Assembly: GCF_036127095.1 (NCBI RefSeq)
Contig: NZ_CP108006.1
Coordinates: 1,922,001-1,986,000, forward strand
DNA: 64,000 nucleotides
From: Streptomyces sp. NBC_00335
Lineage (GTDB): Bacteria; Actinomycetota; Actinomycetes; Streptomycetales; Streptomycetaceae
Direction: 5' to 3'
The translations under genes were made by a program, and so were the position numbers. Positions 46,475-54,424 of the stretch are shown here, piece by piece; within the stretch, counting starts at the first letter, position 1, and every line of letters begins with the position of its first letter. Below the pieces are notes generated by a model, which searched no databases, had not been told where the DNA came from, and was given only the letters and a program-made list of their open reading frames with translations.

Positions 46475-47193
46475 CCGCCGCGGCGGGCCCGGCCCCCGGC
46501 GCCGGCGCCTCGGCGCAGCCCTGGCTCACCTCGCCCGGACCGGGGCTGTGGGCCGTGCGCGTCAGCCTGTACGCGGACCGGGCGCGGGAGTCGGAGGGGA
46601 TGCTCGACGCAGCCGAGCGGGCCCGGCTCCAGGGGATCAGGCGGGCCGGCGACCGTGACCAGTACCGGGTCGCGCACGTCGTGCTGCGGCAGTTGCTGGG
46701 CGACCGCCTCGGTGAGGACCCGGCGCGGGTGCGCTTCTTCCGCGAGCCGTGCCCCGGCTGCGGGGCGCCGCACGGTCGGCCGGCCGTGCCCGGCGTGCCG
46801 CTGCACTTCTCGCTGTCCCACGCGGGGGACGCCGTACTGGTGGCCTTCGCGGACAGTCCGGTCGGAGTCGACGTCGAGGAGCGGCCGGTGCCCGCGCTGG
46901 CCGCCCAGGTGGCCTCCGAACTGGCCGAGGTCCTCCATCCGGCCGAGCGCGCCGAGCTGGCGGCGCTGCCGGCCGAGGAGCTTCCCGGCGCGGTGGCCCG
47001 CTGCTGGTCCCGCAAGGAGGCCTATCTCAAGGGGATCGGCATCGGCCTCGGCGGGAACCCGGCCCTGACGTACGTGGGCACGGGCGCGACCCCCTCGGCT
47101 CCGCCGGGATGGACCGTCGAGGACGTGCCCGCCTTTCCCGGCTACGTGGCGGCACGCGCCGTCCGTACGGGCCGAGTTGGCTCCGCCAGCTAG
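46471..47193 (+). CDS. Sfp-type 4'-phosphopantetheinyl transferase
   Basis: 240 residues. The Mg-binding GVDVEE (residues 132-137) and WSRKEAYLK (179-187) are the two signature motifs of Sfp/EntD-type enzymes, preceded by LHFSLSHAGDAVLVAF. It converts apo carrier proteins to holo form with CoA. Its iron-box-controlled operon and its siderophore-cluster position suggest that it activates the NRPS carrier domains. ATG 46471 overlaps the preceding stop. The next iron box overlaps its own stop codon. Confidence 0.93.
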   Translation: MTAAAGPAPGAGASAQPWLTSPGPGLWAVRVSLYADRARESEGMLDAAERARLQGIRRAGDRDQYRVAHVVLRQLLGDRLGEDPARVRFFREPCPGCGAPHGRPAVPGVPLHFSLSHAGDAVLVAFADSPVGVDVEERPVPALAAQVASELAEVLHPAERAELAALPAEELPGAVARCWSRKEAYLKGIGIGLGGNPALTYVGTGATPSAPPGWTVEDVPAFPGYVAARAVRTGRVGSAS

Positions 47194-47208
47194 GTAAGGC
47201 TAACCTTA
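47190..47208 (+). promoter_or_regulatory. Iron box upstream of the acetylglutamate-synthase-like gene
   Basis: CTAGGTAAGGCTAACCTTA is a symmetric iron-box variant with both AAGGCTAACCTT arms. It overlaps the PPTase stop (47191-47193) and lies 73 bp before the NAGS-like start. Confidence 0.85.
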
Positions 47209-47281
47209 CTTCGACAGTTCCGCCGGGAGGCCTGCGCCTCCGCACCCGCCCCGCACACGGCGGAACCGAGGAAGGAACACC

Positions 47282-47824
47282 TTGACCACGGCCACGCTGC
47301 ACCCTGCCGCCGCGCACGCCATCCTGTCGCCCCGCACCCCCGTCCCCGCCCCCCGGTGGCACGAGGCCCCCGGGGTCCCCGAGTTCTTCGTGCGCCCGGC
47401 GCGCCGGGACGACGGCCCGGCGCTCGCCGCCCTCTCCCGGCCGTTCGTCCATGCGGGGGCGCTGCGCGAACGCCCGCTCTCCCTCTACCTCTCCCGGGCG
47501 TCCGACTTCCTCGTCGCGCAAGCACCCGACGGAACCCTCGAAGGCTGCCTCGGGCTGCGCGAACACCCCGCCGCCGGCGTGCTGTACAACTTCTGCGTCG
47601 CGGCCCACCGGCAGGGCTCCGGCATGGGCGCCCGGCTGCTGCACGCGGCGCTCGCCAGGGCCCGCAACCGCTCCCTGACCACGCTGTTCACGGCGACGAC
47701 CGGCAGCGGCCGCCTCTTCCTCCAGAACGGCTTCCTCCCGGCCTGCCCGGCCCTGGCGCCCGCCGAGTGGGCCCGTTCCCTGGACCCCGCCCGGGGCGCA
47801 CGCGTGCTGTCCCGCGCCCTGTAG
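47282..47824 (+). CDS. GNAT-family protein resembling N-acetylglutamate synthase (ArgA)
   Basis: 180 residues. After a 40-residue lead, FFVRPARRDDGPALAALSRP, FCVAAHRQGSGMGARLLHAA (acetyl-CoA loop) and TTLFTATTGSGRLFLQNGFL align by eye with the GNAT domain of ArgA (FVLTTRSIHWFQERGF-type segment), including the C-terminal SxxxxxxRxxRVL pattern. N-acetylglutamate synthase makes the first intermediate of ornithine synthesis, matching the argCJBD set encoded nearby. An iron box is directly upstream. TTG start at 47282 with GAGGAAGG Shine-Dalgarno. A different acyltransferase role cannot be excluded. Confidence 0.72.
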   Translation: MTTATLHPAAAHAILSPRTPVPAPRWHEAPGVPEFFVRPARRDDGPALAALSRPFVHAGALRERPLSLYLSRASDFLVAQAPDGTLEGCLGLREHPAAGVLYNFCVAAHRQGSGMGARLLHAALARARNRSLTTLFTATTGSGRLFLQNGFLPACPALAPAEWARSLDPARGARVLSRAL

Positions 47825-48080
47825 ACGGCGGGACCGGAGGTACGCGCGACGGGGACTGCCGGGCCGCGCTGGTGTCTCCCCCAAACCGCGGTGGGCCGTT
47901 GAGGTGAGTCCGCTACTGCAATGGTGCCCTCCCCGGTCGAGTTCGGGGGCCCTGCCCCCGCGCGCTGCCCAATGATGTTGGCCGAATCCACCCGGCCCGA
48001 CGCGTACGGCAGCACGCGGAAGCCGACGCGCACGCCCTGGTCGGATTCGCTCTCCTCATCCCATGGCTTGAAGGAGCATC

Positions 48081-52532: not shown

Positions 52533-53575
52533 GGAGCCACTCCATTCATGGGCAGGCCCAGCCGTTCCGGCAGGCCGAGGGCTATGTTCATGCTCTGCAC
52601 CGCGCCACCGGCGGTGCCCTTCGTCAGGTTGTCGATGGCGCTCACGCAGATCAGCCTGCGGGCGTCCGGGTCCACGGCAATCTGCACCTGGGCGCTGTTC
52701 GAGCCGAGGACCGCGGCGGTGGCGGGCCACCGGCCGGGCGGCAGCAGCCGTACGAACGGCTGGTCGGCGTACGCGGCTTCGAACACGGCGCGCACCTCGT
52801 CCTGCGAGGGGATCGCGGAGGTGCCCGCGGCCGGGCGCAGCCGGGCCGAGCAGGTGGCGAGGATGCCCCGGGGCATGGGCGCCAGGGTGGGGGTGAAGGA
52901 GACGCTCACGTGCTCACCGGCCGCGCGGGACAGGTTCTGGGCGATCTCCGGGGTGTGCCGGTGGCCGCCGCCGACTCCGTACGGGGTCATGGAGCCCATC
53001 ACTTCGGCGCCGAGGAGGTGCGTCTTGAGCGCGCGTCCGGCGCCGGAGGTGCCGCTGGCGGCGACGATGACGGCCTCGGGTTCGACCAGGTGCGCCGCGT
53101 AGGCGGGGAAGAGCGCCAGGGTGACCGCCGTGGGGTAGCAGCCGGGTACGGCGATCCGGGTGGCGCCCTTCAACTCGGCGTGAGCTCCCGGCAGTTCGGG
53201 CAGCCCGTAGGGCCAGGTGCCCGCGTGGGGGCTGCCGTAGAACCGCTCCCAGGCGGCCGCGTCCCGCAGCCGGAAGTCGGCGCCGCAGTCCACCACCAGC
53301 GTGCCGGGCTCCATTTCCTCGGCCAGGGCGGCCGATTGACCGTGCGGCAGGGCGAGGAACACCACGTCGTGGCCGCGCAGGGAGGCGGCGGAGGTGTCCA
53401 GGAGGATCCGGTCGGCGAACTCCGGAAGCTGTGGCTGTACGGACCCCAGCGGACGCCCCGCGCTGCTGTGCGCGGTCAGGGCTCCGATCTCCACGGCGGG
53501 GTGCGAGCCCAGCAGGCGGAGCAGCTCCCCGCCCGCGTAGCCGCTGGCGCCGGCCACCGCGACCCGTACGGTCAT
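52529..53575 (-). CDS. argC: N-acetyl-gamma-glutamyl-phosphate reductase
   Basis: 348 residues. NADP-binding [18 protein letters not shown], catalytic Cys in [16 protein letters not shown], and [19 protein letters not shown] and [20 protein letters not shown] at the C-terminus. It reduces N-acetylglutamyl-phosphate. It is 106 bp behind the isochorismatase-like gene with no ARG box visible between them, so the likely promoter is the iron-box promoter upstream of that gene. Confidence 0.95.
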
Positions 53576-53681
53576 GTTCTTCCGCTCTCTCTCGGTTCGT
53601 GCGGGCGCCTTCGGGCAGGGCGGCGCCGTGCTGATGGCGTGGTGACGGCGTGGGCGGGGTGCGGGCGTCGGCGGGATGCGC

Positions 53682-54350
53682 TCAGGCATCCTTGCGCACG
53701 TTTCGGGACCCTCCGCCGAGCAGCAGCTCGCGGAGCAGGGTCTCGGTCGTGCACACCACCGCGCTGCGGGCGGCCCAGCGCAGGGCCATCGCGTGCTCCT
53801 CGGCGGAGAAGTCGGCGACGGCGTCGGCGACCACGAAGGGCTGGATGTCGTTCATGAAGGCGTCCGCGGCCGTCAGGAGGACGCCGAGGTGGGCGTGGAC
53901 CCCGCAGACGATCAGCTGGTCACGCCCCTCCGAGCGCAGCAGCCTCCCCAAGTGGCTGCGCAGGAAGGCGTTGTGGCGCACGTTGGCCAGGACGCGCTCG
54001 CCCGGCTGCGGGGTGAGCGGCGGGATGATCGCGGCGGCGTCGGTCCCGTCACCGATGCCCGGCCCCCAGACGTCCGCGGCGAGGCCGCGCTGGCCCGGCG
54101 GCTGGGCGGCCGGCTCGGCGGTGAAGACGACCGGAATCCCCAGTGCCGTGGCGAGGGCCCGAAGTGCCGTGATGTTCTCCACGAGTTCCACGACCGGGGA
54201 CCTGTCCGTCGGGAGTTCCCCCACGAAGTGGTTCTGCATGTCGTGGACCAGGAGTGCGGCGCGGCCGGGGTCGATGGCCCAGGACGCGCTGGAGCGGGGC
54301 AGGGCGGCGCGATCGGGCATGGGATAGGAGCCGATGGCCGGCAGACCCAT
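53682..54350 (-). CDS. Isochorismatase-like protein (EntB/PhzD subfamily) with altered active site
   Basis: 222 residues. The N-terminus ([23 protein letters not shown]) and the later [20 protein letters not shown] and [15 protein letters not shown] match EntB and PhzD nearly end to end, without EntB's C-terminal carrier domain. D37 is kept, but the lysine expected in LxKWRYSAF is Asn (N123 in [12 protein letters not shown]) and the Gln of TAQP is Glu (E79). No dhb/ent gene is seen nearby. It may therefore catalyse a different reaction or none. It is first in the probable operon with argCJBD, behind an iron box. RBS GGGGAGG before ATG 54350. Confidence 0.85.
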
Positions 54351-54405
54351 GATGATCCCCTCCCCTGATGCCGTGCATGGGGCCCCACACGGGGGCTCTG
54401 TGTAC

Positions 54406-54424
54406 TTAGCTTAGCCTAACCTAA
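54406..54424 (-). promoter_or_regulatory. Iron box upstream of the isochorismatase-like gene and argCJBD
   Basis: Plus-strand TTAGCTTAGCCTAACCTAA (minus-strand TTAGGTTAGGCTAAGCTAA) is a near-perfect iron box, 56 bp before the ATG at 54350. It should put the whole isochorismatase-argC-argJ-argB-argD unit under iron control. Confidence 0.9.

Follow-up and report, generated by a model that had tools for sequence, protein, structure and literature searches.

A predicted iron-controlled ornithine branch beside a coelichelin-type siderophore cluster in Streptomyces

Why would a bacterium that already has a complete arginine pathway keep a second set of the genes leading from glutamate to ornithine, and keep it next to a siderophore cluster? 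The question arises in a stretch of 64,000 nucleotides from the 9.0 Mb genome of Streptomyces sp. NBC_00335 (G000:C1:1922001-1986000), referred to here as the window, in which argC, argJ, argB and argD and a gene for a GCN5-related N-acetyltransferase (GNAT) adjoin a coelichelin-type gene cluster. A first-pass annotation of this DNA had proposed a dedicated, iron-triggered supply of ornithine that escapes arginine control. Our sequence-based analysis supports such a supply, and we put the probability that the locus is an iron-controlled ornithine branch for a hydroxamate siderophore at roughly 0.8. We refine the proposal in one respect: the whole set is not constant, and many relatives keep only argB and the GNAT gene, whose product resembles N-acetylglutamate synthase (NAGS).

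A second arginine gene set beside the siderophore genes

The products of argD, argB, argJ and argC each score above the cut-off of their NCBIfam model, with neighbouring genes overlapping or separated by a few bases, and argC is the second gene of the run, about 100 bases after a gene for an isochorismatase-domain hydrolase (Table 1; start codons of window genes were set by rule). Read beyond the window end, the full non-ribosomal peptide synthetase (NRPS) has 3630 amino acids with three adenylation, four condensation and three peptidyl carrier protein domains. FecCD/binding-protein uptake genes come after the NRPS gene beyond the window, together with genes for an ornithine monooxygenase and a formyltransferase. 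With the three-module NRPS, these genes, the MbtH-like protein, the esterase and the exporter, the gene set of a coelichelin cluster is complete, and by gene content the neighbour of the arg genes appears to be coelichelin-type, as had been suggested along with the identities of the arg genes and of the ArgA-like acetyltransferase, which scores below the cut-off for full-length ArgA.

The genome holds a second complete set, argC-argJ-argB-argD followed by argR, from G000:C1:6946732 onward. Two copies each of argC (74% identity) and argJ (71%) are present. ArgB has two clear copies (63%); a third hit, at 30%, probably represents a different kinase. The genome also encodes, at G000:C1:3693794-3694300, a distinct short NAGS that belongs to the PRK07922 family (282 bits; cut-off 180). 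The window therefore does not carry the only argCJBD of the genome, the circumstance in which a dedicated supply had been judged unlikely.

Similar extra ArgBs, 70-95% identical to the window copy and present besides a housekeeping one, occur in at least 57 further genomes of 295 in the genus. Their neighbourhoods, taken at up to 20 kb each, place them beside coelichelin genes (with the exporter in the stretch in 28 of 57), beside a second, siderophore-like transporter cluster, or in a third type of cluster. The third type contains an ornithine monooxygenase; NRPS condensation domains are found in all three loci checked (L068, L086 and L090) and an EntS-like exporter in two. The comparison used 161 argB rows, of which 132 are extra-type (114 distinct) and 29 housekeeping. 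A scan of named genomes with window-ArgB patterns contributed the best 80 of 285 loci, a sample skewed to near relatives (72 extra-type, 8 housekeeping); these named relatives are Streptomyces.

Iron boxes in place of a putative arginine-control block

Mismatches were counted against the iron-box consensus TTAGGTTAGGCTAACCTAA. Five sites with at most five mismatches lie in the window, compared with none in ten first-order Markov shuffles (640 kb). Both boxes listed by the first-pass annotation, before the GNAT gene and near the arg genes, are present, with three mismatches and one. The statement that iron boxes precede the arg genes holds in that a box heads the operon; the gene directly behind it is that of the isochorismatase-domain protein, with argC second. 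An iron box in the promoter marks the regulon of the iron repressor, presumably of the DmdR/IdeR type, and the window arg genes have such predicted sites.

The arrangement recurs. Of 111 distinct extra operons (the 114 distinct loci minus three that are cut), 101 have a box with at most four mismatches no more than some 420 bases from their first detected gene; of 2280 stretches drawn at random from these loci, 174 have one. It precedes argC in 24 of the 26 relatives whose first detected gene is argC, and an isochorismatase-domain gene comes first in 43 of the 111, argB-only loci included. Searches of 21 housekeeping loci (141 kb) and of the region upstream of argB in the 29 housekeeping rows gave no iron box.

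Housekeeping argC genes carry a different signal. Alignment of 27 upstream regions revealed a conserved block, TTGCATAAANNTGC..CGTATAGTCATGC, which we infer to be the promoter with ARG boxes from its conservation and the adjoining argR. Of the 29 housekeeping loci, 27 have the block and two are cut by contig ends. It is present in none of 132 extra-argB loci (not deduplicated), two of which have a lone half-site match; the upstream stretches searched were shorter for the housekeeping loci. Before the window arg genes it is absent even at three mismatches per half, and no argR follows argD there, unlike in the housekeeping set; on both points the early reading of the locus was right. With iron boxes on the extra loci and the promoter block on the housekeeping loci, the two controls are mutually exclusive in these samples.

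Other matches to these signals lie elsewhere in the window. An iron box at 25324-25342 (two mismatches) precedes a DUF2470 gene (25382-26101, + strand) far from siderophore genes; a DUF2470 gene (13848-14573) also adjoins arg genes in locus L068. A weak box (four mismatches) precedes an amidohydrolase gene (PF07969; region 44555-46238); in two cluster types, many related loci also have this amidohydrolase beside argD or the GNAT gene. The half-site CGTATAGTCATGC, with one mismatch, occurs at 9868-9880 in the 3' end of a carbamoyltransferase gene, possibly by chance.

The extra kinase has lost its arginine site and kept its catalytic residues

Arginine-sensitive N-acetylglutamate kinases (NAGKs) carry the arginine-site motif E-L-F-(T/S)-x-x-G-x-G-T and an N-terminal segment that is absent from arginine-insensitive NAGK (PMC3236213; this and the other papers cited by PMC number are cited from excerpts). 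One actinobacterial ArgB is inhibited by arginine with an IC50 of 186 uM (PMC8220418). The comparison of feedback residues that had been proposed gives a clear result: in the window ArgB the motif glutamate is replaced by Gly289 and the N-helix of the arginine site is missing, whereas the housekeeping ArgB keeps both features. Both are absent in 99 of 109 scorable extra ArgBs, window copy included (111 rows scored, minus the broken L089 and L114, with every position filled), and both are kept in 29 of 29 housekeeping ArgBs. At the seven catalytic or substrate-binding positions checked, all 109 carry the same residue. In its predicted model (mean predicted local distance difference test score 88.8), the window ArgB has its first helix of at least four residues at 31-35, and confidence is low before about residue 25. 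These features point to an active, arginine-insensitive kinase.

A two-gene core in many relatives

As had been suggested, we looked for the same genes in other coelichelin clusters. The coelichelin exporter was matched (E up to 1e-180) in 69 Streptomyces genomes, and in 29 of them, counting that of the window, it adjoins extra arg genes; in one of the remaining 40 (G098), outside the 20 examined below, exporter and argB are on different short contigs. Gene composition was counted for 101 of the 114 distinct loci, 13 having been dropped for short flanks or breaks. Beside coelichelin the commonest state is argB plus the GNAT alone (35 of 54 loci); argC, argJ, argB, argD and the GNAT occur together in 13. 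Streptomyces sp. SirexAA-E (L195) is an example of the argB-only form. Of 53 loci without argJ, 48 have a GNAT close to argB, as do 31 of the 48 with argJ (Fisher P 0.0018, a value that ignores kinship); in four of the other 17 with argJ, a GNAT is present farther off in the stretch. The kinase is thus in most cases accompanied by a possible supplier of acetylglutamate. Arginine feedback in cyclic ornithine synthesis is believed to act at the synthase and the kinase (PMC10464499), the two steps represented by the pair that is kept.

Two coelichelin loci, L114 and L121, have the GNAT with a truncated or interrupted argB; there the cassette appears to be in the course of being lost. Among the loci examined only these and L089 look broken, while L093 and L197 gave partial proteins only. 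We considered whether argB-only loci are debris and rejected this, ArgB being under purifying selection.

The acetyltransferase resembles NAGS

The GNAT aligns to positions 285-428 of the 429 of the two-domain ArgA model TIGR01890 (44.8 bits; full-length cut-off 202.85), and both its profile and its fold fall with the N-acetyltransferase (NAT) domains of NAGS. Its R64 and R171 are equivalents of the glutamate-binding Arg316 and Arg425 of Neisseria gonorrhoeae NAGS (ngNAGS). Against the PRK07922 family it scores 24.2 bits, under the 180-bit cut-off. Relatives (E < 1e-20) occur in 47 of 293 genomes of the order, all in Streptomyces, one of nine genera sampled. Glutamate is the putative substrate.

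GNAT-fold enzymes form hydroxamates in other siderophore pathways, and the GNAT gene has an iron box of its own, so the enzyme might instead be a tailoring enzyme that acylates N5-hydroxyornithine, with the cluster making an acetylated coelichelin variant. Its grouping with NAGS domains, the carboxylate-binding arginine pair, invariant across 42 aligned GNATs, and the presence in the cluster of the formyltransferase for the known hydroxamate all argue against this. The same holds for its Pfam matches, which are to Acetyltransf_7, _1 and _10 and not to Acetyltransf_8, the family of siderophore acyltransferases. We consider the tailoring role unlikely and a NAGS-like role the better account.

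Selection and history of the extra ArgB

For hand-picked pairs, the ratio of non-synonymous to synonymous substitution rates (dN/dS) of ArgB is 0.08-0.27 in 11 argB-only pairs, similar to the 0.05-0.24 of four housekeeping pairs; the extra ArgB is under purifying selection by this measure. An ArgB tree was built by a quick method from 130 rows, leaving out L197 and removing arginine-site columns; rooted on the housekeeping copies, it cannot tell duplication from transfer. The extra ArgBs form one side of a starred branch, with the third type nearest the root, and, type 3 apart, the extra rows (99) are united by a branch that is not starred (Shimodaira-Hasegawa-like approximate likelihood ratio 93). 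Parsimony requires at least ten changes between the full and the argB-only state, five of them forced by starred branches.

The arginine site could also have been lost by relaxed selection, with flux limited elsewhere and the genes kept through linkage, and the many exporter-bearing genomes with no such argB beside the exporter, together with the remnants in L114 and L121, would fit such decay. What makes this quite improbable is that the loss hits the two elements of the arginine site and spares the catalytic core, whose checked residues are the same in all 109 ArgBs, that ArgB is under purifying selection, and that argB persists in loci lacking argC, argJ and argD. Another reading takes the second set for a general back-up route to arginine that lies beside the cluster by chance; its full-length enzymes and an ornithine carbamoyltransferase gene in the window (9874-10884, - strand) could lend themselves to one. 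This is very improbable given iron boxes in place of argR and the housekeeping promoter block, the recurrence of extra argBs beside two other siderophore-like cluster types as well as coelichelin, and their frequent occurrence without argC, argJ and argD, where they could not alone be a back-up pathway.

Other features of the window

The carbamoyltransferase gene adjoins one for arginine deiminase (11074-12312, - strand), a pair that could be another source of ornithine, from arginine. A right-handed beta-helix gene (48081-49178; PF13229) between the GNAT gene and argD has no relative in the other mapped loci and looks like a local insertion. The 4'-phosphopantetheinyl transferase upstream of the GNAT probably activates the NRPS.

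Table 1 Features of the arg genes and their surroundings (positions in the window)
Feature	Position	Strand	Basis or remark
4'-Phosphopantetheinyl transferase	46471..47193	+	PF01648; neighbour
Iron box before NAGS-like gene	47190..47208	.	3 mismatches
NAT-only NAGS-like GNAT	47282..47824	+	Partial match to TIGR01890
argD, acetylornithine aminotransferase	49241..50425	-	NF002874, 617 bits, cut-off 457
argB, N-acetylglutamate kinase	50422..51384	-	Catalytic residues intact, arginine site lost
argB codons 289-298, arginine-site motif, Glu to Gly	50491..50520	-	Motif comparison
argB codons 1-26, unrelated sequence replacing first half of arginine-site N-helix	51307..51384	-	Mostly low-confidence in model
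argJ, ornithine acetyltransferase / N-acetylglutamate synthase	51381..52526	-	NF003802, 453 bits, cut-off 351
argC	52529..53575	-	TIGR01850, 381 bits, cut-off 234
Isochorismatase-domain hydrolase, head of apparent operon	53682..54350	-	PF00857
Iron box heading isochorismatase-argC-argJ-argB-argD run	54406..54424	.	1 mismatch
MbtH-like protein, coelichelin-type cluster	54546..54758	-	
Iron box between MbtH gene and esterase	54888..54906	.	2 mismatches
Putative ferri-siderophore esterase	54952..56067	+	PF00756
ABC exporter, taken as coelichelin marker	56150..57772	-	
Trimodular NRPS, 3' part, runs past window end	57840..64000	-	

Discussion

The locus can be read as follows. At low iron the iron repressor, of the DmdR/IdeR type, would leave the boxes. 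The NAT-only GNAT and ArgJ would make N-acetylglutamate, which the second ArgB, with both arginine-site elements gone, would phosphorylate without being shut off by arginine. ArgC, ArgD and ArgJ would finish ornithine, from local copies here and presumably from the housekeeping ones in the many relatives without their own, and the monooxygenase, the formyltransferase and the NRPS would consume it, drawing the flux into the siderophore. The principle would be to copy the controlled entry steps, to trade arginine repression for iron repression and to drop the arginine sensor.

We lean, with moderate confidence, towards a narrower view of the essential unit: a two-gene override in which a NAGS without a regulatory domain and an arginine-blind NAGK, behind iron boxes, would alone drive ordinary ArgC, ArgJ and ArgD to ornithine under iron starvation at any arginine level, the fuller argCJBD being an older form worn down several times.

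Several observations weigh against the reading of the locus as a dedicated supply. No box was detected near the first detected gene in 10 of the 111 extra operons, and neither a GNAT nor argJ lies near argB in 5 of 101 loci. Among the matches listed, 40 of the 69 exporter-bearing genomes have no extra ArgB beside the exporter; 20 of those 40 genomes were examined at the locus and none has an intact argB, two holding remnants and one a GNAT alone, so that the ornithine supply is dispensable. Ten type-3 ArgBs (L068, L072, L073, L083, L086-L088 and L090-L092) retain an intact arginine site though their clusters carry iron boxes; loss of the site is thus not required. Constraint is weaker on the window ArgB (dN/dS 0.32-0.41, three pairs) and on the GNAT (0.07-0.39, 11 argB-only pairs). 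Ser427 of ngNAGS and Glu353, its proposed general base, have no equivalents in the GNAT. Finally, the NAT-only NAGS of Mycobacterium tuberculosis has a very high Michaelis constant for glutamate and is reportedly inhibited by arginine (PMC4490483, PMC3236213), so that the NAT-only form is no proof of arginine insensitivity.

If correct, the reading suggests that a specialised-metabolite cluster evades the feedback of a primary pathway by owning re-regulated copies of its controlled steps. A cell with two ArgBs whose arginine sensitivity is predicted to differ makes a clear test system. The pair of argB and GNAT gene offers a starting point for increasing yields of hydroxamate siderophores or ornithine-derived peptides, and in genome mining, argB genes with the signature of arginine-site loss may flag clusters that draw on ornithine.

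That an NRPS cluster can contain a complete ornithine set is already known. The lunaemycin (lun) and stenothricin (sten; StenJKLM) clusters of Streptomyces, and the quinichelin cluster as cited with them, are NRPS clusters that use ornithine or N5-hydroxyornithine and contain argC-argJ-argB-argD paralogues (PMC9866976). The window likewise has arg paralogues adjoining NRPS genes and a separate housekeeping set, and its gene content is consistent with ornithine-derived residues in the NRPS product. Iron boxes, loss of the ArgB arginine site and a minimal form of argB with a NAGS-like gene are not described in the excerpts of that account. Among the papers that our searches of the open-licence PMC literature listed, none was seen to describe iron-boxed arg genes, a siderophore-cluster ArgB blind to arginine, or the two-gene form.

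The cch clusters of S. coelicolor and S. ambofaciens share the three-module NRPS, the ornithine monooxygenase and the formylating enzyme and are under iron control by DmdR1/DmdR2 (PMC9854754). Ornithine is said to come there from the arginine route, and dedicated arg genes are not described in the excerpts of that paper. The arginine-insensitive NAGK of the E. coli type is likewise without the arginine-binding N-terminal segment (PMC10464499, PMC3236213); the insensitivity of the window ArgB is predicted, and its site appears to have been lost secondarily, in a genome whose housekeeping ArgB retains it. The NAT-only NAGS of M. tuberculosis (ArgA, Rv2747; 5yge, 5yo2) also has a single NAT domain and no arginine-binding amino acid kinase domain, but the window GNAT is closer to the NAT domain of classical NAGS, and a separate PRK07922-type enzyme is encoded elsewhere in its genome.

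The available excerpts on Aspergillus fumigatus describe an ornithine supply that limits siderophore output and rises on iron starvation, through a single, arginine-inhibited pathway for all uses in which arginine and polyamines are prioritised over siderophore (PMC3688985). That priority is the problem such a cassette would solve, and the window genome differs in having a separate, predicted arginine-blind copy. The two-gene override would be a natural counterpart of the feedback-resistant argB mutants of industrial arginine strains.

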